64,000 bases of DNA, taken from the NCBI RefSeq assembly GCF_032854445.1, contig NC_088304.1, forward strand, positions 8,815,704 through 8,879,703, written 5' to 3'. Position 1 is the stretch's first letter, and every line of letters begins with the position of its first letter. The DNA comes from Liolophura sinensis. Its lineage: Eukaryota > Mollusca > Polyplacophora > Chitonida > Chitonidae. The notes beneath the pieces are model-generated. The model made no database searches and had not been told where the DNA came from. It saw nothing but the letters and a program-made list of their open reading frames with translations. Both the position numbers and the translations under genes were made by a program. Positions 3,382 through 54,470 of the stretch are shown one piece after another.

Positions 3382-6267
3382 ATGAGTGCTGTAGCACGCC
3401 CTTCTCTACAGAACGGAGGTACATATCACAACCAGTATCAAGGTTGGCTTGTGAAAAGCTTCATGAATCAAATGTCGTCAGAACACAGTGTCCAAGCGTT
3501 GTCATGGAGGAAGCTTTACCTCAGTAGAGCGAAGTTGAAAGCGTCTAGTCGTACTTCAGCTCTTCTATCTGGCTTTGCAATGGTATGTAGATAAACTGTA
3601 GTTATTTGTTGTAGGTCACTAGCACTGGATGACATGATGCACCATGCTCTTTTATATTTTTACTGACCCTGGTATAGTCATGGATCGCCCCGGTAAAATT
3701 TCAGAAATTTAGTTAGTCGATTACTAACCTACCACGCCCGCCCAGTCACTCCTTTACCCTAGGGTTCTAGGGCAGGTGCCTGTTAAATCCTGAGATATCG
3801 ATCATCCCAAAAGTAAATATCCTTCCATATTTTGGTGGATGCCACACATGTCAAAGACAACAGCACATGCTCTAGTTTAGTTCTCTGGCATACGATTTGG
3901 ATTAAAACCAGACATGATAGTACAACAACAAAAGGACGTCATAACTGGCATTAGAAAGGAGGAATAGTTTCATATCCATCTGCCTGTTGGCCCAAAAGAG
4001 CAGAGATGCTGAACTTTGGGATGATCGACATCTCGGGATGTTAACAGGCAGGTGCCCTAGGACTCTAAGCATTATGAAGGCGTGTCTGGGGGGAGTGGTA
4101 GGTTAGTATTCAACTGTTTTTGGAAATTTTCCAGCACTTCCTACAGAGGCGAAGGGGATCCAGCCATGACTACACAAGCGTCAGTACAAATATAAAAGAG
4201 CGTGGCGTAGTCATCCAGGGTTAATAGGTCACTAAGTATGGCCAGAGGGATGCCTGGTCAAAGTTCGTTTATTTGTTTATATTGTTAGTGTTTAACACCA
4301 GTCTGGGGAGTTGTAAGGACTAGGGTTATATTTACGTGTGATTGCCATGTGCATTCTGACATCATATTTTTCTCACGGGTTTTTACTGATTTTTCATTGG
4401 TTAAAATTGAATGGGGAGATGTTCAGTTTGCATACAAAGCAAAATAGCGCAAGTAAGACGTTTATCATTCTAGTTTCTGTCACGTATCTGTTATTCATGT
4501 GACATTGCTTCGCGATTTATACTGAACTTGTTTTAGAATGCTCTGGATTAGAACTTCTGTCAGACAGCATGTTGGGTCCGTAGCTGGTTGCTTATACCAC
4601 TACACCACTCGAGTTGATGGCAAGAACATGGTTTTTAGACGTCTTTATGACAGATGAACATGGTAAGGGCAGAATGCATATGTGCGTGTGTCACACGCAT
4701 TTGTCACATGAACTACATCTGAAAAGGGTCTCCTCCATATTTGGTCAGCCTCATTCAGCGAAACATGAATGAATTGACGTAAGTAGTGACATAGAAAGTT
4801 ACATATAAATGTAACCCTAGTCTTTACAACAGCCCCAGTCTGTGCTCAAATGTTGCTTGAAGATGGTTAGGTTATAGGTTGAGGAAACCAGCTAGGGTGC
4901 ATACAATATACCTACACCGTTGTTCAGGTACCTGACAAACTGCCTTAGTTAAAACTGCAGCTGATGTTATAACACCTGCATGATGACCCAGGATCCTCTC
5001 ACCAATGCAGTCGCTGTGAGTTCAAGTTCAGCTCATACTGCCTTCCTCTCCCGGCCATATGTGGGAAGGTTTTCCAGCAACCTGCAGATGGTCATGGGTT
5101 TCCCCCGAGCTCTGCCTGGGTTCCTCCCACCATAATGCTGGTCGCCATCGTATAAGTGAAGTATTTTTGAGTTTGGCGCAAAACACCAATCAAATAAATA
5201 AATTATAACAACTGGATGTTGTAAGAGCAAGGTTAAATTATAAGGATTGAGATAATTGGAATTGCTTTCTTAAATTGTTGAAAAAAAATGCACAGTATTA
5301 AAGCCGCAAAAGAACAAAAGTTTCCTGTCATTTCAAACTTTCCCTCTTGTTATGTCAGCGGTAGGCGATGTTCAAGTGTTTTTGCGTAACACATATGATG
5401 TCATCATTCCAGCATGACTACTTCACTTGATGTCATATTTACCTGATTGATCTAAAGATAAGGAATATTGTGTCACCTCACGAAGCTTTGAGGGAAACTG
5501 CCAAGGATTTTGTTTTTGAAGACTCGTCACTTATAGGGGTTAAATAGTGTTATTCAATGCAAAATCTTTTTGAACTGAGGTGTTAGATATCTTCCATAGT
5601 GTATCCTTCAGATCATTTTAATATTTTTCCATGGTTTCTCTTGGGACTGAGTGCCACTTTAAGACATCAACATGTTACATTAAAGGACCTGACTATTATG
5701 GCACAGTGACTATTTTTTGCATTCGTGATTTGTCATACCTTTGTTTTTTCCATGTATTTTTACCTCTTTTTGTTTTGGCTTTTTCAGGTGGCAATGGTTG
5801 AAGTCCAGCTTGAGGATGTGCCTCAGGGGCTTTTAATCGCATTCAGTGTGTGTACAACTTTGTTAGTTTCAGTTCACCTCTTAGCTCTGATGATCAGTAC
5901 ATGCATACTGCCCAACATTGAGGCGATCAGCAATGTACATAACTTAACTGCAGTACACGAGTCGCCACATGAGCGAATGCAGTGGTACATAGACATGGCA
6001 TGGGGATTTTCTACTGCCCTGGGCATTATACTCTTCCTGGTAGAAATTACAATTTTGTGCTGGGTCAAATTTTACTCGTATAGTTTCAAGGCTGCAATTG
6101 CCTCAACTGCTATTGTCATTCCTGTCTCCGTTATGTTCCTTGTGTTTGCCATGCATTTTTATCGCCGACTCATTGCCCATAAATACGAACGTTCATCTCG
6201 AGGCCTGGAAGAACTGGAAACCATTGCGACTGAACTAAGTAACAATTCAACTGTTCGGGATGTATAA
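3382..6267 (+). CDS. Orai: Orai calcium release-activated calcium channel
   Basis: Two coding exons, 3382-3582 and 5788-6267, joined in phase 0 (donor GTATGT at 3583, acceptor TTTTTCAG ending 5787), give 226 residues. Orai proteins form the pore of the plasma-membrane channel that STIM opens after endoplasmic-reticulum calcium depletion. Visible family marks: the cytosolic N-terminal helix [20 protein letters not shown] (41-60); the TM1 pore helix with R57, G64, V68 and selectivity-filter E72 (human ORAI1 R91, G98, V102, E106); TM2 about 82-104; TM3 with E153 (human E190); TM4 about 171-192; and a C-terminal acidic helix near 206-217 that would dock STIM. The TM1-TM2 loop is short (VQLEDVPQG) and the TM3-TM4 loop is much shorter than in human ORAI1. 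The intron sits where I recall the human ORAI1 intron. An upstream noncoding exon cannot be excluded. Confidence 0.95.
3612..4234. mobile_element. foldback (long inverted-repeat) element in the Orai intron
   Basis: Arms of roughly 200 bp face each other. The left arm starts near 3622 and the right arm, read in reverse complement from 4224, matches it with mismatches (shared words include GCTCTTTTATATTT, TAGTCATGG, ACTAACCTACCAC and CGATCATCCCAAA). The same 10-mer TAGGTCACTA lies directly outside both ends (3612-3621 and 4225-4234), consistent with a target-site duplication. No transposase frame lies between the arms, so this is non-autonomous. Confidence 0.7.
4978..5208 (+). mobile_element. 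family A tRNA-SINE, head truncated
   Basis: Body and tail of the abundant SINE (family A). It carries box-B-like GAGTTCAAGTTC, the CCAGCAACCTGC and CCTCCCACCATAATGCTGG blocks, and the terminal CACCAATCAAATAAATAAA. It lies in the Orai intron. The box-A half of the tRNA-like head is missing or too degraded to see. Confidence 0.85.
5225..5680 (+). repeat. repeat copy 1 (paired with 8212-8705)
   Basis: Shares a colinear series of blocks with 8212-8705: GCAAGRTTAAATKATAAGGAT at the start, AAAAAAAATGCA, CATTCCAGYATRACTAC, TAAGGAATATT, GATTTTGTTTTT and CACYTATAGGGGT, ending in a YTGGSWSTGARTGCCACTTTA-like stretch. Indels separate the blocks. Not coding. It is either an old segmental duplication or an unclassified dispersed element. 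Confidence 0.7.
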
Positions 6268-14940: not shown

Positions 14941-17900
14941 ATGCCGCACCTAAAGACCCCGAAATTGCGGGAGCCATTGTGGAAAGAGGCCGACTTCCTG
15001 GCCAACAAGAGAGGTGTTCGCCACACTGTGTATTCTGTGAATGGAGACCAGTTCACGGGAGAATGGCTGGACAACAAAAAACACGGTAGGTTTCTGTGGT
15101 GACATTTATATGCTTTCATATCGCATGACAGCTTCACAAGTTTTGCGCGTTCAGTGGATATCTTTGTTTGCCGAATTCGGAAAGCAGGTTCTACATGTAG
15201 GTTATCATGTCTAGTTTTTCTATTACATGTATTTTCCATGGCTCTTGAATAGGGAGTCTCAAACAGTACGAGACTGTCATAGAGTATATACTTCTGATCA
15301 CAGTTTTATACTATCCTTGAAGTGAAATCGTTGAAAATGAAGTCCCATATATACAACACGCCCCAGGGGTCTGAATATGTGTATACCTCCATGTATGAAT
15401 ACACGTATATACGGCACAGGTAGTTAAAAAAAAAAAAATTAAAAAAGACACAAGCAGTATGCAGTCATTGAATGTGGTACAGGCCTAGCAGATCAGTATT
15501 TATTTATTTTAAAACTGACCAATGGAGCTACTTTAACTGGCGACAGTCATTTTCATGAACTCTTACACGTCTTCGTGGATAGCACTAGAATGTATATCGA
15601 TAGTGTAAATAAATGCCACACAGTGCATTCTTCATGGTTGTTACTCTTTAATATTTCCTCTGTTGAGCAGGTAAAGGAACATATCGATGGAAGAGCACAG
15701 GTGCTATTTTTGATGGCGACTGGAGGAATGGGAAGAGAAGTGGGTTTGGTACATATAGCGTGCCAGATGGAAAAGGTGGATTTAAAAAGGAATACTCAGG
15801 AGGCTGGAAAAATGATAAGAGACATGTAAGTGAATTATTTGACATTGCATTGTTGAGCTGTACGGAACGAAATAATGATGTCATTCGTTAATCAGTCCAA
15901 ATCAAACTAACAGGTATTAAGTCAATGCGAATGTCGTGGCAATTTGCCAAAATAAATAAATAAATAAAATAGGTAAACAAATAAATAAATAAAAATAATA
16001 CTCGCTAGTACTACCCCCCCCACCCTCCCGCCCCTCATCCACCACCATGGCTTTTTAAAGCAGAAACAGATTAAATAAAAAAAAAAGCGTTGGTGTTGAT
16101 TGCCGTCACTTGTCTAGCATTCCGTCAGAGCTGAGCAGTGATTAAGTAGGTTTAATGTTTCCAGGGTTACGGGACACAGTTTTACTCAGAGGATGAGTAT
16201 TACGAAGGCGAGTGGTATGCAGACCAGCGAGGTGGGTGGGGCAGAATGTACTACGCTGACGGCACAATTTACGAGGGAGAGTGGCATGAAGACCAACGAA
16301 ATGGACAGGGCATGTTGCGCTTAAGTGAGTGTCTAGACATACCACAGAAACCCTGATTAAAAGATTACTGAAATAATATTCCCAAAAATTCCTTTCTTCT
16401 GGTGAACATCAGGAAGAAAGATGATGTGACATCAGAGTTACTAGATACCGTCAGTATGGCTCAAAAAGCCCACCTTAGTATTCAAATATTTGAATGCCTT
16501 TCAACACTGTTAAAAAAAATAAATGAAACTATTTCTATACATAGTTTTCAGTTGTCTGTATGATGAACATAACTTCATGCTTTATCTTTCTTTTACTTTA
16601 ATTATTTGGACTTCAGGATAATATCACTGTATTTGATGATTCAAACTTCATGCTGTTTTGAATGTCACAGATATTCATAAATTCATATTTTGGTGCCATG
16701 AGACAATGTTGGGCATTACAAAGACCGAGAGGAATTTTGCAGTTGTGTTGCCTTATATATTATTTCGAAATCTGTCAAAATTTGAGTACAGAGGGTGTCA
16801 TTCAAAAACATGTCATATGAAAATGTCATCTGTGTCAAGTGCTTTGCTGATGATATTATTTCAAATTTGAATTCACTTTTGATTGATTGATTTTCTCAAT
16901 CGTAAATACTGCATAATTAATTGCTGAAAATGTTCCACCTGGTCAATCAAATGAATAAATGCTCAGGTGTATGAATTCAGTTTTCAGTACTCAGAATCTT
17001 GATCTACAATCTGGTGTAAGTCATGCATAAACTAGCTTAATTTTCATCATATATGTGTCTGGGTTATATGAACTTTGTCATGCTAGTTGAAAGTTTTGCT
17101 TATTATTTTACGACACTAACCTGTACCTGTCATTTTCAGCCAATGAAAACAGATATGAGGGTTCTTGGAAAGATGATCAGAAAAATGGGCCAGGGAAATT
17201 TTTCTACCTGGATTCTGGCCAGATGTATGATGGTGTGTGGCTGAATGACATCGCTAAGTGCGGGACAATGAAAGACTTTGGTCGCGACAACGCCCCTCAG
17301 CCAACACAGTATCCTATACCAGAGGTTAGTGAAGATGCGTCCAAACATTATATCATTGTAATTAGTATGAGTGTGACATTTGCAATCTGATTTGCAAAAC
17401 ATTTTGAAATATTACATGTATGCACTTATGAAACAAAAGGTTACCATATTTCACCTAAATTTTGGTAACTATGTAAAAAAGCACTATCAGAAACACGTAA
17501 AGGCCTTAAAATAATACTTCTGGAGCTGGCACTTAAGTTTTTCTGGTAAGAAATTTGACAATTTCACAAACAACTTTTAAGTGGCCTTGAATCAAGATGA
17601 ATCAATCAGAATCAAGCAAAAGGTGTTAGTGAAAACTGTTAAACTTTGACTAAAATACAGTAGTTTATAATCTGAAAGTAGTTGGGTAGTTTGCAGGTGC
17701 AATGGTCTCACCCTGCTCTTCAGTCCTTAGTCAGGTCCATTGCCAGTTATTCCAAAATTGATCATATGGTAATCCCTCACTTGGCACTCATCATAAAAAA
17801 ATTTGTCGAGTATTGATTAGCCAAGTTTCATTATAGTGACTTCAGCATGGCATTCCAGTGAGACAGCATCTAATATAGGTCAGTATGAAGACTGGCTAAA

Positions 17901-42395: not shown

Positions 42396-42764
42396 TCAAC
42401 TGTCCTTTGGAATACAGGCTGACCGCTGTCAAATAGGTTAAATGCACTTTTCAGACTTTTCTTGGCATCGAAACACGATGTGCTCGCTGAATCCTTACAT
42501 CTTGCGATTATTGACCTGGGACTGCCCTTATTGGTTGATGGCTGGCATACGAAAATCTGTTTCGACGCATAGATTCTGACATGAAATTCTGGAGATCCCT
42601 GATGCCGAGGCCTTGGTAGCAATGAGCTATTGGGACAGCAACAATAAATGACCGGGCCTTAGAAACAATAAACGATCGGGACAGTTGTAATAAGCAATCG
42701 ACATTGCTGTGCAGGACACGTTGTGGATTGTGGATGAAAATCGTTGGAGTTAACTTTGTTCCAT

Positions 42765-44830
42765 CAATATGCCACACCACCAATATGGCACACTACCAAC
42801 ATGGAATACCACCAGTATGACACACCACAAATATCACACACCACCAATATGGCACACCACCAATATTACATACCAACAATATGACACACCACCAATTTGA
42901 CACACCACCAATATGACACACCACCAATAGGGCACACCCCCAATGTGACACACCCCCAATGTGACACACCACCAATTTGACACCCCCCCAATATGACACA
43001 CCACCAATAGGGCACACCACCAATATGACACACCAACAATATGGCACACCACAAATATGACACACCGCCAATATGGCACACCACCAATATGACACACCCC
43101 CAATGTGACACACCACCAATATGACACACCCCCAATATGACACACCACCAATAGGGCACACCACCAATATGACACACCAACAATATGGCACACCACAAAT
43201 ATGACACACCACCAATAGGGCACACCACCAATATGACACACCACCAATATGACACACCACCAATTTGACACACCCCCAATATGACACACCACCAATAGGG
43301 CACACCACCAATATGACACACCAACAATATGACACACCACAAATATGACACACCGCCAATATGGCACACCACCAATATGACCCCCCCCCAATGTGACACA
43401 CCACCAATATGACACACCCCCAATATGACACACCACCAATAGGGCACACCACCAATATGACACACCAACAATATGGCACACCACAAATATGACACACCAC
43501 CAATATGGCACACCACCAATATGACACACCCTCAATATGACACACCACCAATATGACACCCCCCCAATATGACACCCCCCCAATAGGGCACACCACCAAT
43601 ATGACACACCACCAATAGGGCACACCACCAATATGACACACCACCAATAGGGCACACCCCCAATATGACACACCAACAATATGACACACCACCAATATGA
43701 CACACCACCAATATGACACACCACCAATATGACACACCACCAATAGGGCACACCACCAATATGACACACCACCAATAGGGCACACCACCAATATGACACA
43801 CCACCAATAGGGCACACCACCAATATGACACACCAACAATATGGCACACCACCAATATGACACACCACCAATATGACACACCACCAATATGGCACACCAC
43901 AAATATGACACACCACCAATATGGCACACCACCAATATGACACACCCTCAATATGATACACCACCAATATGACACACCAACAATATGACACACCACCAAT
44001 AGAGCACACCACAAATATGACACACCACCAATATGACACACCACCAATATGACACACCAGCAATAGGGCACACCACCAATATGACACACCAAGAATATGG
44101 CACACCACCAATATGACACACCACCAATATGACACACCACCAATATGCCACACCAAAAATATGCCACACCAAAAAATATGCCGTACCACAAATATGACAC
44201 ACCACCAATATGGCCTACCACCAATATGACACATCACCAATGTGGCATACCAGCAATATGCCTTACCACTAATATGACACTCCACCAGAATGGCACACCA
44301 CCAATATCACACCACCAATATGACACACCACCAATGTGGCATACCAGCAATATGCCGTACCACTAATATGGCACACCACCAATATTACATACCACAAATA
44401 TGACACACCACCAATATGGCATACCACCAATATCACACACCACCAATATGGCACACTACAAATACGTCATACCACCAATATGCCGTACCACCAAAATGAC
44501 ACTCCACCAATATGACACACCATCAATATGACACTCCACCAATATGGCACATGGGGCCTCCGTGACCGATGGGGTTAGGAAGCCAGCACGGCGCAATGAC
44601 CTAGGTGCCTCTCACCACTACGGTTGCTATGAATTCAAGGGATGGCTGTGCGAATAGTCGTGGGTTTCCCCCGGCTCTGGCCGGTTTCTTCCCACCATAA
44701 TACTGGCCGCCCTCGTATAAGTGCAATATTTATTGAGTACGGTGTAAAACACCAATCAAATAAATAAAAAAATAAATAAATAAACAATATTTCACCCCGC
44801 CAATATGGCATACCTCCTATATGGTATAGC
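42765..44830. repeat. 16-bp minisatellite with 144-bp higher-order period, split by a SINE
   Basis: About 110 head-to-tail copies of a 16-bp unit, typically CCACCAATATGACACA, with variants ATGGCACA, AGGGCACA, TTTGACACA, GTGACACA, CCAACAAT and CCACAAAT. The CACCAACAAT variant starts at 43031, 43175, 43319 and 43463, exactly 144 bp (9 units) apart, with neighbouring variants mostly in the same order, so a higher-order unit was amplified. Elsewhere the spacing is 9, 10 or 13 units. From 44.15 kb units become more irregular (GCCGTACCAC). A SINE interrupts it at 44553-44782, after which decayed units run to about 44830. Minus-strand frames of 217-483 codons exist because the 16-bp unit has no stop in any minus-strand frame. 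Confidence 0.97.
44553..44782 (+). mobile_element. family A tRNA-SINE inserted in the minisatellite
   Basis: GGGCCTCCGTGACCGATGGG head, a shortened body lacking most of the post-box-B block, GGCCGCCCTCGTATAAGTGC, GAGTACGGTGTAAAACACCA and an AATAAATAAATAAA tail. Minisatellite units lie on both sides. Confidence 0.92.
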
Positions 44831-47859: not shown

Positions 47860-48145
47860 ACCGCTACGGCAGCCTAATGGTTAGGGCGTCTCCCTTGAAG
47901 TCGGGAGACCCAGGATGAAACCCGGGTGAGGTCATACCAAAGACTTTAAAAATGGCACTTCTTACTGCCTCGCTTGGCGCTCAGCATTGAACAAGGAAAC
48001 AGAAATGGTTGGCCCGGTGTCAGTATAATGTGACTTGGTGGGGGTATGCCTTGTGTCTTCCTCTCACCATAATACAGGCCCACTTGTATAAGTGAAATAT
48101 TCTTGAGACAAGAAAACACCATACAAATACATAAATAAATATTGT
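47860..48145 (+). mobile_element. chimeric SINE: family B head and body, family A tail
   Basis: Head GCTACGGCAGCCTAATGGTT then AGGGCGTCTC (box-A-like), box-B-like GGATGAAACCC, body ATACCAAAGACTTTAAAAAT and GTCAGTATAATGTGACTTGG. At about 48058 it switches to a family A tail: CTCTCACCATAATACAGGCC, TAAGTGAAATATTCTTGAG, ATAAATAAAT. Confidence 0.8.
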
Positions 48146-48971
48146 CATTATGATTAATTGTTTGTCTCGTATATGATATTGATTTTCAGCACTACGTTGT
48201 TCATACAACATAGTGTGTGTTTTTATTGTACGCAGACTGGTGCGTGTGTCGCCATCTTTTGAAGTGCTGGATCAATGAAGCATCACGTGGAAGACACACT
48301 AAATGAAACCAGACATGACACCCTACGAAGTAAAGCATAGACTTCAGACACCAGTTCTTGAGCTGTTCGTCCTGGCATGCCATAACCTTGCCCTTTACGG
48401 ATATTTTCAGTTATTAATTAATTTATTTGACTGGTATAATCGTAATGAAGAATTTTAATTGATACGACTTCACTGAGGAAACCGGGGTGTCCGGAGAAAA
48501 GCACCGTTCTTCTCTCAGAAACCCAGAACACATCATGACTAAACTTCGGCCGACACAGCAAGGGTTGGGTTCGAACCCGCGACCTCGTTGGTTGGTGAAA
48601 ACAAACACCATAACGTATTCATTTGCTAATAGATCATATAGCCCAGTACATGCATGCATGCATGTCGAGTGTCAGCTATGAATTCCAAACAAATTATACG
48701 TTAGTAAGATAAATATATCAACACAACCGTTAGAAAACCACCCAGTCGGAAAATGACAAAACCTACAAGTGATCAAAGAGTGATCAAACGTCATATTGAA
48801 TGTGCTTGCCAGTAGACTGAAAGAAAAGAAGTTTTGGAAGCGTGCCAAGTGCATAGTATACATGTAAGTTATAGAGAGTACAAATGTGTACCGGTAATAC
48901 ACATCGAAAACATAGATAAACGTAGGGGTAAAATAACAAGGAATCGGGCATGATTTATGACCGAAAAATTA

Positions 48972-51900
48972 TCAGGATTCGTTACTGTCATCGTCATCGT
49001 CGTCATCATCCTCATCATCACTGTCGCTATCATCATCATGGCTGTCAATGCTTCCACATTTCCCTGGAACTGAAAAGTACAGAAATTTGAACATCAATAA
49101 ATAACTAGTTTATGTAAATTTAACATCTTGAGAGACAAATGGAGCCTGACTCCAGTACATGGGTGTATGTTTGCCACAGGATTCACACAACAATAAGTTG
49201 CAAGGCGCATCTATACATATTAAAAGTGATAAACTATAATCCTATGAAAATCAGCGAGTGCAACAATTGCCTTCGTTTTCTCATGATCTTGAATCGTTTC
49301 TGTAACAAAGAAATTACTCATCGCGATATATTTATTTATTTATTGGATTAGTATTTTGAGCCGTATTCAAGAACATTTCACTTATACGGCGGCGTCCAGC
49401 ATTATAGTGGGACAGACCTTAACACATACGGTCGGGAAGGAAGCCTACATGAGCAGAAGGTTGCATGAGGGGGGGGGGAGGAGTCCCCCCCCCCCCCAAA
49501 AAAAAGTATAAATCTCTGCCTAATATATTATATCATGTTCTCTACCCTGTCAAATAAATATATCTTTGATGAAGTAAGCTCGTCGAGCTCGTCACGAGCA
49601 ATGGCGGGAGCTTTATTCCCGTCATTATTTTATGCATATTGTGTTAGTAGTTACGTATTCCATGGGTTTACTTTCAATCATATTTGCATTTCATACAAGG
49701 GTGGACAAATCAAGCTAGCCTTATCCAACCTTGGCTCCATTAAGATGTCAACCCCAATGTTTGAAGACTGTTACATGTTGATATTACTGATATACGATAG
49801 ACAAGTTTCTAGTTTAATATAATTTCGTAACAAAATTTCACCATAGCCCCTAGTTACGACATCCTTGGGTTTTTCAAGCGGGTCCGCTTTGACAGCGGCC
49901 TAAGTCACACGGTTTCCTAGTTATCCTGGAACCATTTCACATGTCTGAAGGCTAAGCTAAGACGGCTAACTCAGTTTCAAAAAAGAAAATATTTGACTAT
50001 CTGCTAAAGTTTGTTGTCTTAGAGTTTGAGAGTTATTTTAAAATCCTTCAAAGACAGCTATAGGTGGAAAGAAATATGGCTTTAAGAGTGTTATCAATCC
50101 CAGTTTTGTTTTTCTTTTCGCTTCCTCTATCTTTTGTGAGGATTATATCTCTCCGTTTGCAAACTTTGTTAAAAAAACACAAAAACGAATGACGTCATCT
50201 TTATGAGTTATTAATACATAGAAGTTTAATTTATTTACATTTTGAATTCCATTTAACAATTTTTATTATTGATTCTACCAATCAGACACAGAGCGGCCAC
50301 GTGGTCGGCTATGGTAAGCCGGATAAGCTTTACTTTTGTGAAATGGCCTAGTCTAGTCATTGTTTTTTGTGTGTGTTTGTTTTTTTTCGTAGCCTGCTAA
50401 GGGTAGTCAGCTAATTAAGCCTTAATCAACCAACAGATCTTAAACGGGTACGGAAGTTTTGTGAATTCTCCCCCCCCCCCCCCCCACACACACACACCAC
50501 CACCACCACCAAGGACTGTGATTTAGTATGGAGTATGGAGTTGGATGGCTATCACATAAATAAATAACAAACACAAAACGCCATGTCTGAAGCACAAAAG
50601 AAAAAGCGACATAACGGAATGACAAATAATTTTACCTGCGATACAGCTTGTCACCTTTACCGTGCATGTTTCGCCATCAGAAAAGGCTAGTAGTTGAGTA
50701 GGGGATAAAATGCGATAGAAACACGCTTCACCATCAATGACGACAGGCTGAAAACTTCGGACAGTCCCGGGGAGCTCGGAGCCTCCATCTCCCAGACAAG
50801 ACCTTTCGTCTTCAATAATACGGACACACGTGGCATTCGTCACCAATTCTGTCTCGTCAGCTTGACATGGACCTACTGATGAAAAAGAGAGCAAACTAAC
50901 GTATATGAATTTAATGGTCGAGAAAGATAACATGCATCGCAAGGAATACAGGGTTTGCCTGAATATATATCCTTATTCGCTACTGTAGCAGTAGGGCCCT
51001 ACTGTACGCCTGTTTTTTGGCCACTGTCGCTACTCTAACTAATATTACTGCTCTGGCCACTGTCGCTACTATCACTGCCATCGCTACATTTTCGACATTA
51101 GCCTTATTGTCACTACTATCGCTCCAGTCGCTACGATAACCACTATCGCTACTATCACTACTATCGCTATCGTCAATGCTACATCGCTACTGTTTGTATT
51201 ATCGCTAGTTAAAGTAGCCTACCATCACTGTACGATCAACTGTAACGAAAGTAGACAGTAAGTGTATGTCGGATCTACGAGTTATTTCCGTGCATTGTAA
51301 GTGATAAAAGCTACACCCTAGAGAAAAGTGATTGCGATCTGCGACCTTGTCTGTTAGCGTCAAGCTCTTTGGAGCATAGTGATCAGTGTTACTTTAAAAA
51401 GAATTATGAGTAATGTTATTTGTACTATATTCTGTAAATTGTGTAAACTTTGAACTTGTGAAAGAAAAATGTTAAATTTTCTCACTAACGTAAAGATCGC
51501 TAACGATGAACTATCATTCAGTGCTCAGTTTTCATTTTTTTTTTTTTGCTGTTTTTTTTACTATTGTCACGGACGCGCCGAACAGAATAAACTAGGCTAC
51601 ACGTGTCGTTGTTGTATCGATAGTTTTACGGGCATTCAAATTTGTCCTCGAAAATGTTGTGTGCTCTTATTGGTTGGCTATTGGCCAGAAATCTATATTA
51701 GCAGGTCGCTCAGCTTGTGAGGGAACACATGGCAGAAGCCGTCACACAGTGACTGAACGATAACCGTACAATAAAGGTAGGCTACGTAAGTCGAAAGTCG
51801 TCGTCATAGGACAGAAGTTGCCTTAATTAACTACTTGGATAGTTGCCGCAACTTGTATACAGTGACGCGATACGTCACTGTTGAGAGGGTGATCAGACGA

Positions 51901-53595
51901 CCGTAACGCCGCCGCCGTGAAGTAGATGCCGCCGGGTTTTGAGGCCAGCAGCCAAGTCGCCAAATCTATTTTGCCTTTCACTTCGTTTATTTACACTCAT
52001 GTACTCCGCGTTATCCATATTCATAAAATTTGTCTTTAAGGAACCACAGAATAAAGTTCTAGAATAAACCTTTGACGTTGACTTTGTGCTATACCCAGTT
52101 ATAACCAATTGCGAGCAAATATGTGTCTAATGCCACATTAACCTTGCCATGGCTGTTACAACTACCTGTTATCATTATCACTACTTCCATTACCGGTGTT
52201 AGTGTCGCAACTATCTCTATATATCTATCATATCTATTACCGCTACTAACATATTCACCTCCGCCTCCGGCCCCACCAGTTCCTTGGTCTGAAAAAGACA
52301 CAAATAGATTTATTTATTTATTTGATTGGTGTTTTACGTTGTACTCAAGAATATTTCACTTATACCACGGCGGCCAGCATTATGGTGGGAGAAAAACCGG
52401 GCACAGCCTGGGGGAAACCCGTGACCATCCGCAGGTTGCTGACAGACCTTCCCACTTACAGCCGGAGAGGAAGCCAGCATGAGCTGGACTTGAACTCACA
52501 GCGACCGCATTGGTGAGAGGCTCCCGGGTGACGCAAATAGAACATTGGTAGATAATCGTATAGTTTACATGGTCGCATTGAGTTTCTCTATTATTTATGT
52601 TGTGATTTCCCAATGTTCAGGCTGAAAAGGCTATTTTGTTAGTCTTTCACATGGAACAGGTGGAAAAGTTTTAAATAAGGATGTGTGTCAGATACCCAGC
52701 GAAGACAGCTCGTCATTAAAGAGAAATATTCCTGAGCATTGAAGCGTTGAGCGTTGAAGACCGATCAAAAAAACAACAAATTAACTCACCCATGTTTAAA
52801 CGCAAAAGCCAAGTGTATGTAAAATGTTCTTACCTGGCTTACAGCTTGTCACTTTCACTCTGCACGTGCTCTCGAGGTCAGAAAACGCCAGGGCAAAAGT
52901 AGTGATGCCGTAGAAACAGACGTCACCGTTAATGGAAGCGGAGAGAGGCTCAACGCTGACAACATTTTCGGGGACTACGTTAGTTCCTTCTCCCACGCAT
53001 TGTATCACAATACCACCGCCAGTAGTGTTACACGTGAAGATAGTCACTACTGGTGTTTCACCCGTCTGACACTGAGCTATGGACAAAGATTGTGGTGATT
53101 TATTCAATCATTCTCTGATTAACTGACTGCTGGCCAACTGACTAACTGACTGGCTGGCCAACTGACTAACTGACTGGCTGGCCAACTGACTAACTGACTG
53201 GCTGGTTAACTGACTAATTGACTGAATGACCAACTGACTAACTGAGTGACTGGCCAGATGACTAACTGACTAACTGGCAAACTGACTAACTGACTGACTG
53301 GTTTCTTGATGGACTGACAGACTGACTGATTAGTCGATCTTATGAATCACCGGTACTAGTTTTTATTCAAGAACGATTTACAAAACAAAGGTGATGCCTT
53401 CCCACTCCCTTTATCACATTTGAATCATCAAATGTGCCTGACTGCCAGAGTTAATTTCTTGTCAAATTTGTCAAACTATTGAGGCAAAATTACCTTCACT
53501 AACAATATGGCGGAATAATAATTACCTTGACCTCCAGTGAGCACAGCAGTGAGACACAATACTGCTGCCAGGACGTGTATACCTTGCGATACCAT
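48972..53595 (-). CDS. secreted protein with two six-Cys domains and a poly-Asp tail
   Basis: I do not recognise this gene. Five exons in transcript order, 53595-53526, 53076-52834, 52288-52259, 50872-50636 and 49069-48972, all GT-AG and all joined in phase 1, give 225 residues. Residues 1-23 (MVSQGIHVLAAVLCLTAVLT then GGQ) are a signal peptide. Two homologous domains follow, about 24-104 and 115-193, each on its own symmetric 1-1 exon. Shared pattern: C-x12-C-x(9-10)-C-x(24-26)-CFY-x(15-16)-C-x6-C, with IxGxxCFY, LAFSD and TCxVKVTSC conserved. A 30-nt exon adds the linker DQGTGGAGGG. The last exon encodes GKCGSIDSHDDD and DSDSDDEDDDDDDDD, 15 Asp in 32 residues. So it is an exported, disulfide-bonded protein with an acidic tail; calcium or mineral binding is inference. 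Uncertain: the linker microexon and possible further exons in the large introns. Confidence 0.65.
49325..49460 (-). mobile_element. family A SINE fragment
   Basis: ATTTATTTATTTATTGGATT tail, TATTCAAGAACATTTCACTT, ATACGGCGGCGTCCAGCATT, then a short broken body (CAGACCTTAACACATACGGTCGGGA-like). Just downstream of the last exon of the secreted-protein gene in window coordinates, so inside its final intron. Confidence 0.75.
50469..50512 (+). repeat. C-run, (CA)n and (CCA)n microsatellite
   Basis: CTC then about 16 C, then CACACACACACA and CCACCACCACC. Similar G/C runs occur at 49471-49495 and 33791-33806. Confidence 0.95.
50872..50878 (-). other. NAGNAG tandem splice acceptor
   Basis: Upstream of the second six-Cys exon the minus strand reads TTTTTCATCAGTAG. 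Either AG keeps the frame: CAG adds codon(s) V-G before PCQ, TAG gives G only. One-residue alternative splicing at the domain edge is therefore possible. Confidence 0.55.
50985..51215 (+). repeat. degenerate tandem repeat (TATCGCTAC-like)
   Basis: Roughly 9-bp motif, ACTATCGCT / CACTGTCGCTACT, repeated irregularly in the intron between the linker and second domain exons. A looser relative at 52150-52250 lies next to the linker microexon. Confidence 0.8.
52305..52532 (-). mobile_element. family A tRNA-SINE, nearly complete
   Basis: TTTATTTATTTATTTGATTG, CTCAAGAATATTTCACTTAT, GGCCAGCATTATGGTGGGAG, CCATCCGCAGGTTGCTGACA, GAGAGGAAGCCAGCATGAGC, CTTGAACTCACAGCGACCGC. The tRNA-like head is cut after box B. 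It ends about 300 bp before the first six-Cys exon. Confidence 0.9.
53108..53335 (+). repeat. tandem repeat, 24-bp unit from ACTG/ACTA tetramers
   Basis: GGCCAACTGACTAACTGACT then GGCT is repeated three times almost exactly, with looser tetrameric copies on to 53335. It lies in the intron between the signal-peptide exon and the first six-Cys exon, starting about 30 bp upstream of that exon's acceptor. Confidence 0.93.
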
Positions 53596-53756
53596 TTTAA
53601 ACCTAAAAATTCCAAATACATTTCTTTTTGTTGAAAAAAATTACTACAATTTTGTTTGCAAGGATAAAATGAAATATGCGTTTGCCTCTACATATATCAA
53701 CTTGGATTAGGCCTACATCTGCAATGTTTTGACGAAAAAGAACGATGTCTAATACA

Positions 53757-53893
53757 AGTGCCAGCAATCTGCGAATGGTCGTGGGTCGTCCCCGGGTTCT
53801 GCCCGGTTTCCACCCACCATAATGCTGCCCGCCGTCGTATAAGTGAAATATTCTTGAATACGGCGCGAAACGGAAATCAAATAAGTAAATAAT
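53757..53893 (+). mobile_element. family A SINE, 3' half
   Basis: GTGCCAGCAATCTGCGAATG, CACCCACCATAATGCTGCCC, GCCGTCGTATAAGTGAAATA, then GGAAATCAAATAAGTAAATA. It sits between the noncoding and first coding exons of the secreted-protein gene. Confidence 0.88.
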
Positions 53894-54055
53894 ACAAGTG
53901 ACTTTCAGACAACAGGCCCAAAATATCCTGTGGCAGGAGATATGCATACCACATGCCGATAGGAACGCATGCGCGTGATGTTCCCAGCATGCAGCTGGCT
54001 GTATATTCAAGAACAAGCGCTTCTAAGTGTCTCCATGCACAGCGCAATTACTTAC

Positions 54056-54084
54056 CTTTGCCTCAAGACGATGCCACAGGAGAA
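54056..54084 (-). other. candidate 5' noncoding exon of the secreted-protein gene
   Basis: On the minus strand, sequence following the TATA box runs to a consensus donor CAAAG|GTAAGT (exon end 54056). A plausible acceptor, TTGGAATTTTTAG, lies 7 bp upstream of the ATG at 53595. The start at about 54084 is set only by distance from the TATA box. Confidence 0.45.
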
Positions 54085-54109
54085 CTGCCGAGATTCCACT
54101 ATACCCAGA

Positions 54110-54117
54110 TATTTATA
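54110..54117 (-). promoter_or_regulatory. TATA box of the secreted-protein gene
   Basis: TATAAATA on the minus strand (context AATTATAAATATCTGGG), about 25-30 bp upstream of the inferred start and 55 bp upstream of a consensus splice donor. A TATA promoter suits a strongly or tissue-specifically expressed secreted protein. Confidence 0.5.
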
Positions 54118-54229
54118 ATTCTTTGAAGAAAAATGGATACTCTCGAGCAAAAGAAAACATAAGTCGAAAATTTTTTTCCTTAGACTGCTTTTAAGATAAC
54201 GGAATCGGCCATAATGGGTTTTCACGCTT

Positions 54230-54470
54230 CAACATGGAAATGACTTCCGCTCAAATACGGCGGAAAACATACTCTTGTACACTGACGCCAGGTGCAGAGA
54301 TCAAACATGCTTATCCAATAATCTCTGTTAAAAGGCACTTAGAGATTATAACTGCGTCAAAGGTATCGAATTTTTGTTTGTTCGTCAGGAAATCAAATGT
54401 CACTTCTGTCCTTTCGAAACATTGATACATAAATAAATCTATGCGTCGAAACAATGGTGAAAAGCCTAAT
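54230..54470 (+). repeat. repeat D, copy 1 (paired with 57190-57430)
   Basis: Colinear and highly similar to 57190-57430: CTTCCGCTCAAATACGGCGG, TGACGCCAGGTGCAGAGATC, AAACATGCTTATCC, AGAGATTATAACTGCGT, TTTTTGTTTGTTCGTCA, AATCAAATGTCACTTCT, GAAACAATGGT. Confidence 0.85.

Follow-up and report, generated by a model that had tools for sequence, protein, structure and literature searches.

A gene family of the chiton Liolophura sinensis with six-cysteine domains and a recurrent acidic tail, and its possible role in calcium or mineral binding

Chitons make shell plates, sclerites and magnetite-bearing teeth. Acidic proteins that are rich in serine (Ser) and aspartate (Asp) and carry S-x-E sites are represented in vertebrates by the SIBLING or dentin phosphoprotein type, which is not known to have disulfide domains such as those described below and to which no homology is claimed. 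The mollusc protein accripin11 combines a small cysteine (Cys)-rich domain with a short C-terminus that is rich in Asp and considered disordered, and it interacts with CaCO3 precipitation; the mature form comprises 103 residues, contains 8 Cys and is predicted to form helices. Pteriomorph bivalves possess accripin11 along with six similar shell proteins (PMC9808598). Asp-rich stretches are described for the mollusc shell proteins Aspein, asprich, MSP-1 and Lotgi1|233420, and a very acidic C-terminal part behind the folded domain for the nacrein-like protein Lotgi1|239188 of Lottia (PMC3374290). Here we analyze a gene of the chiton Liolophura sinensis that is located on the minus strand of a 64,000-nucleotide stretch of contig NC_088304.1 (positions 8,815,704 to 8,879,703), hereafter referred to as the window, and that belongs to a gene family with six-Cys domains and acidic tails. 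The underlying assembly was published as Liolophura japonica, the species being later corrected to L. sinensis (PMC12441733). RNA-seq data published for this species cover digestive gland, foot, gill, gonad and heart (PMC11068029).

The window gene consists of five coding exons (Table 1), and its four introns are all bounded by GT-AG splice sites and located in phase 1. Rejoining of the exons yielded a 678-nt coding sequence of 225 codons plus stop, which is the frame that had been proposed in a first-pass annotation of the sequence. The signal peptide annotated at that time corresponds to a signal-peptide-like start with a hydrophobic core, VLAAVLCLTAVL, at residues 8-19 (mean 2.92), and it is followed by two homologous six-Cys domains (D1 and D2), a glycine (Gly) linker between them and an Asp tail. 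The best 19-residue window past residue 24 reached a mean of 1.43, and the protein is probably secreted, as judged from these features. Its predicted isoelectric point is 4.05 when the first 24 residues are omitted. The translated last exon contains 15 Asp, the number annotated before, and 2 glutamate (Glu) in 32 residues. Since the Asp codons are mixed (9 GAT and 6 GAC), this tail is not a plain trinucleotide run.

With accripin11, the deduced protein has in common that an Asp-rich C-terminus follows a small Cys-rich domain. It differs from accripin11 in its length of 225 residues and in having two six-Cys domains that are predicted as strands, with at most a three-residue helix, instead of one helical eight-Cys domain (PMC9808598). 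In comparison with Aspein, asprich, MSP-1 and Lotgi1|233420, the Asp run of the window gene lies in a tail exon of 32 residues that follows folded domains, and Lotgi1|239188 differs by its own nacrein-like N-terminal part (PMC3374290). RTMP1, another protein of chitons, likewise has a signal sequence and lacks similarity to known proteins; its 539 residues include Gly/Ser-rich, WF-rich and histidine-rich regions, and the accessible part of its description mentions neither an Asp tail nor a six-Cys domain.

The domain duplication that had been read from the sequence was clearly recovered, as D1 and D2 are identical in 37 of 86 columns and align with a global score of 122, compared with a mean of -21.9, a standard deviation of 11.4 and a maximum of 27 in 5000 shuffles (z 12.6). 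The Cys gaps are nearly equal, with 12, 10, 26, 17 and 6 residues in D1 and 12, 9, 24, 18 and 6 in D2, and they agree with the annotated spacing once the F and Y of the CFY motif are removed from the fourth gap. Because each domain contains six Cys, three disulfides per domain are probably formed. AlphaFold modelling, based on alignments of seven rows for D1 and eight rows for D2, predicted only strands for D1, with a predicted local distance difference test (pLDDT) value of 77.9 and a predicted template modelling score (pTM) of 0.66. The model of D2 was the better one (pLDDT 86.9, pTM 0.72) and contained strands at 7-19, 22-26, 36-43, 51-56, 59-63 and 69-77 in addition to the three-residue helix.

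Neither the sequence nor the predicted fold led to a named family, the outcome that had been set beforehand as refuting the novelty of the domain, since a significant match was obtained neither in the profile searches nor with Foldseek. In Pfam and NCBIfam, no match exceeded the curated cut-off, and only ZrgA (in both collections) and Cwf15 appeared below it, with matches that included the Asp tail. Searches of the PDB were without significant result, the lowest E being 0.56 with sequences and 1.5 and 0.34 with profiles. Among the 50 matches listed for each Foldseek search, nothing significant was obtained for D1 against the PDB (best E 0.16, template modelling (TM) score up to 0.49), for D1 against BFVD (best E 0.074, TM up to 0.57) or for D2 against the PDB (best E 0.088, TM up to 0.47), where many matches were ATP-synthase subunits. 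A resistin-like fold was considered and rejected, as it reached an E of about 0.5 and a TM of 0.42 at best with D1 and was not among the 50 matches listed for the better D2 model. The SUEL or rhamnose-binding lectin family (PF02140), prompted by the C-terminal motif, was likewise dismissed after Pfam scans with E limits of 10 and 1 had returned no match to it; the genome contains five matches to PF02140 (SUEL_Lectin), all of them at places other than the family loci. Moreover, a search of the open-access literature by words, not by sequence, returned no paper naming the family among the matches listed. These data support the view that none of Pfam, NCBIfam, PDB and BFVD recognises the family, which the first-pass annotation had suggested could be new.

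Relatives of the window gene were searched for in the whole genome sequence (632 contigs, 609,464,459 bases) with seven single domains as queries. This approach yielded 13 places with an E of 0.001 or lower to at least one domain query, namely the two window exons and the eleven places listed in Table 1, and weaker domain places were detected at 5.35 Mb of C12 (E 0.027) and 45.70 Mb of C1 (E 0.032). The genomic regions fetched around such places are denoted by L numbers. The places at 20.19 Mb of C11 and 16.53 Mb of C3 match the window domains weakly (E 0.004 and E 0.012), share a mutual match of 2.2e-5 and have the same kind of signal exon. Each domain is encoded by one phase-1 exon, a feature taken to define the family, and the pattern of six Cys with a first gap of 12, a last gap of 6 and variable middle gaps was present in six of the eight exons counted. 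The respective gaps are 12, 7, 26, 19 and 6 in D1 and 12, 10, 24, 19 and 6 in D2 of the paralogue on C4, 12, 9, 29, 19 and 6 at 20.19 Mb of C11, and 12, 5, 22, 22 and 6 in the exon C11c; the exceptions are the C3 exon (8 Cys, first gap 6) and that at 8.98 Mb of C4 (4 Cys).

The C4 paralogue (region L013) represents the strongest support for the window gene model, because the splicing pattern and the acidic tail recur in another copy. Its five coding exons are identical in order and phases to those of the window gene and specify 226 residues, of which 118 out of 233 aligned columns are identical to the window protein, with all twelve domain Cys kept, and its last exon, DVTGGTSGSSNSSDDEDDDEDDVDDDDDSSESR, provides an Asp tail of its own. 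The predicted splicing is further supported by the one-domain relative at 20.19 Mb of C11, which can be joined likewise into a gene of 118 residues with a signal exon, one domain and the ten-residue tail DPGAGESDEE. Accordingly, all three genes possess a homologous signal exon and an acidic phase-1 last exon. At 16.53 Mb of C3 (L021), the signal exon and the 8-Cys domain exon are both open, and no acidic tail was detected when L021 and the next 9.5 kb (L022) were scanned. In the C11 one-domain gene, the signal and domain exons are separated by a tandem array of an 84-bp unit (L018 3220-6001), of which 33 copies lie in the fetched stretch.

Between the window gene and the C4 paralogue, the rates of non-synonymous (dN) and synonymous (dS) change are 0.425 and 0.956 for D1 and 0.344 and 0.819 for D2, giving ratios of 0.42-0.44 per domain, which were calculated by the NG86 method and are rough at a dS of about 0.8-1.0. 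These ratios between two full genes are consistent with constraint and show no sign of accelerated change, which argues against a reproductive or mucus and egg-coat protein with a tail forming Ca2+-dependent gels. The divergence of the duplicates at this dS would fit such a protein, which we regard as quite unlikely, and so would the three N-x-S/T sequons, of which the tail contains one.

A tree of eight domain exons separated D1-type from D2-type exons by one branch with support of 88/90, no branch being starred. The domain duplication thus likely preceded the gene duplication, an order that is not firm, because some label shuffles matched the separation (55 and 70 of 500 separated equally well), because two long rows met and because D1 of the window gene is about as similar to D1 of the C4 paralogue (36 of 82 identical) as it is to its own D2.

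Several other copies look broken, so that the family appears to turn over. At 25.05 Mb of C11, a TGA occurs inside the domain and also in an inverted near-copy (95.8% over 2474 bases); this TGA is common to L014 (2157-2399) and L015 (2354-2595) and replaces the codon of the second Cys. The remaining domain frame and an acidic tail exon are kept in L014, and L015 is frame-broken. Selenocysteine at this codon was rejected, and both loci are read as broken copies, because the Rfam matches up to E 5 included no selenocysteine insertion sequence (SECIS) family and L015 is frame-broken too. Additionally, the C13 copy contains two TAA, Cys were lost at 82.8 Mb of C1 and 8.98 Mb of C4, and the frame was lost at 82.8 and 45.7 Mb of C1.

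Such a birth-and-death pattern, together with the small disulfide-rich beta domain of the models and two phage H-type lectin domains among the non-significant Foldseek matches of D1 (E 0.10 and 0.44), would agree with a secreted recognition or immune protein of the lectin-like or antimicrobial kind, with beta domains that bind ligands and an acidic tail that serves only for solubility or charge masking. We consider this explanation rather unlikely, as it would leave the recurrence of acidic tails at several loci unexplained; moreover, no lectin was matched in Pfam, and the SUEL_Lectin matches of the genome lie elsewhere.

The acidic tail is a recurrent feature of the family, as deduced from sequence comparison. 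A scan for an acceptor followed by a short acidic phase-1 frame to a stop detected tail exons in five of nine fetched regions (L013, L014, L015, L016 and L018), always on the domain strand and downstream of the domain exons, and it also recovered the window tail with two nested acceptors. Since L014 and L015 are near-copies, at most four of these five loci are independent. The background of the scan amounted to 5 other, unrelated matches over both strands of 156,412 bases, 3 of which were on the gene strand of the window. S-x-E sites are present in four of the five distinct tails. The window tail also holds an odd extra Cys (KCG), and CGC and CIC occur in the tails of L014 on C11 and L016 on C1, respectively; these Cys may form dimers or cross-links. 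That the acidic exon lies outside the transcript or in a dying gene, the tail being a chance open frame, is hardly credible: broken relatives exist, but an acidic last exon in the same phase is found in the C4 paralogue and others, and in the window gene the frame is open, the splice sites are GT-AG and none of the twelve domain Cys is missing.

We tentatively propose, with a rough probability of 0.45, that the window gene encodes a secreted, disulfide-stabilized anchor that carries a polyanionic Ca2+- or mineral-binding tail and belongs to a small chiton gene family. We infer secretion, partner binding, Ca2+ or mineral binding, phosphorylation and the tissue concerned from sequence features and analogy: the two beta domains would bind a partner in the extracellular matrix and thereby fix the molecule, and the Asp/Ser tail, expected to be disordered, would bind Ca2+ or the surface of a mineral as a polyanion. 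Phosphorylation of the S-x-E site near the C-terminus, perhaps by Fam20C, may strengthen this binding. The protein would act in the manner of accripin11, without homology being implied, and the suggested calcium-binding or biomineral role rests on this analogy and on the recurrent acidic tail. The genome contains Fam20C matches that exceed the Pfam cut-off, and a fam20C knock-down disturbed nacre in the pearl oyster (PMC5824888). Several observations weigh against the proposed role. No tail was found by the scan in L017, L019, L020, L021 and L022-L024, and the tail of the 20.19-Mb gene on C11 holds only 5 acidic residues. The thresholds of the scan were set after the tails of L018, L013 and L016 were already known, so that the tail count is a description and not a blind test. 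Tails rich in Ser and Glu may easily contain S-x-E by chance, and turnover with broken copies would fit immune or reproductive proteins too.

Calsequestrin-like chemistry provides a parallel for another use of the poly-Asp tail, in which a soluble metal buffer of the body fluid or the secretory pathway would bind many Ca2+ or Fe ions with low affinity and have no mineral role. The iron response of chitons has been stressed in a report on Acanthopleura granulata (PMC7850002), in line with such a buffer. We judge this function to be decidedly doubtful, since the window protein terminates with SNES and not with a KDEL-type end and since the Rfam matches up to E 1 in the region 48000-54400 included no iron-responsive element.

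The linker exons of the window gene and the C4 paralogue (DQGTGGAGGG and DQTGGGGNE) resemble in their opening the start of the C4 tail, DVTGG. Reading through the C4 linker exon into intron 3 (L013 5181-6200) gave 66 residues to the stop, 9 of them from the linker and the rest mostly rich in Ser, Asp and Glu, and GAYAGY words occur in this intron 32 times in sense and never in antisense orientation, compared with 10 and 3 in the window gene, whose read-through is not acidic. It is possible that the Ser/Asp-type repeat of C4 intron 3 serves as an alternative acidic segment, and we infer from these sequences that the ancestral unit may have combined a domain with an acidic exon and that the inner acidic part may have turned into an intron. 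A more far-reaching idea, which we consider distinctly improbable, is that the new disulfide beta domain of a chiton-specific family evolved as a module for carrying polyanionic runs, that every domain exon once had an acidic exon behind it and that the inner one became the Gly linker, with its Ser/Asp repeat now intronic. Splicing or retention might then still add a phosphoprotein-like Ser/Asp segment, by which one gene could tune how mineral or iron is deposited in plates, sclerites or teeth.

At the 5' end, the window gene probably extends beyond its start-codon exon, because this exon has an acceptor 7 nt upstream of the ATG that is common to four relatives (L013, L020, L021 and the nearer L023 copy). 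Homologous signal exons are present in L013, L020, L021 and L023 and, without an aligned ATG, in L015. A donor (GTAAGT) is located 62 nt downstream of the TATA-like box at 54117-54112, and these consensus matches point to a first exon that is non-coding and ends at 54056. In the C3 relative (L021), the same pattern scan detected TATAAA 543 nt upstream of the ATG and a donor 95 nt past it, and it found no TATA for L013 or L020. Upstream of the C11 one-domain gene, two near-identical signal-peptide exons occur about 6.2 kb apart (L023 1425 and 7616, minus strand); the acceptor AG is lost in the further copy. At the 3' end, the candidate polyadenylation hexamers of Table 1 follow the stop codon by 513 and 545 nt, with two more hexamers beyond.

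Table 1. Positions of the features of the window gene and of related domain places in the genome
Feature	Position	Strand	Basis
TATA-like box (TATAAA), candidate core promoter	54112..54117	-	Pattern scan, consensus match
Start-codon exon, signal-peptide-like; coding part 53595-53526 = MVSQGIHVLAAVLCLTAVLTGGQ	53526..53602	-	Homologous exons in relatives
Domain 1 exon, six Cys	52834..53076	-	Translation; AlphaFold model with strands only
Gly-rich linker exon	52259..52288	-	Counterpart in the C4 paralogue
Degenerate 9-bp tandem repeat in intron 3	51113..51169	-	Repeat scan; one gene-strand frame across it is Ser/Asp-rich
Domain 2 exon, six Cys	50636..50872	-	Translation; AlphaFold model
Acidic tail exon with stop codon	48972..49069	-	Translation; acidic tail exons at five other family loci
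Two candidate polyadenylation hexamers, first bases 48459 and 48427	48422..48459	-	Pattern scan
Eleven other domain places	C4 22.03 Mb (two), C11 25.05-25.07 Mb (three), C1 82.81 Mb (two), C4 8.98 Mb, C13 6.21 Mb, C11 20.19 Mb, C3 16.53 Mb		

The neighbourhood of the window gene, with an Orai gene, a MORN repeat and a DUF716 match below cut-off, gave no functional hint. An Orai calcium channel gene is partly contained in the plus strand at 5713-6264 (PF07856, E 1.2e-50), and a MORN-repeat frame is located at 17091-17387 (E 1.8e-5); ORAI1 and MORN3 are also neighbours in human. The region 42761-44551 consists of 112 copies of a 16-bp repeat, and its minus strand has an open frame of 490 codons; it is a minisatellite, with no evidence for a gene. 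A dispersed repeat copy at 49324-49412, which may be a short interspersed element (SINE)-like sequence, has at least 40 further scored matches in the genome (40 of 2135 first-look candidates were scored).

For chitons, a radular-tooth proteome exists (PMC6351634), and the same word search of the open-access literature returned no chiton shell-plate proteome among the matches listed. The exon-defined family with its recurrent acidic tails now provides a concrete gene set for the proteomes of plates, girdle and radula. If the proposed role as a secreted anchor with a Ca2+- or mineral-binding tail is true, the family would represent a separate case of the design of a disulfide domain plus an Asp tail that is known from bivalve accripin11.

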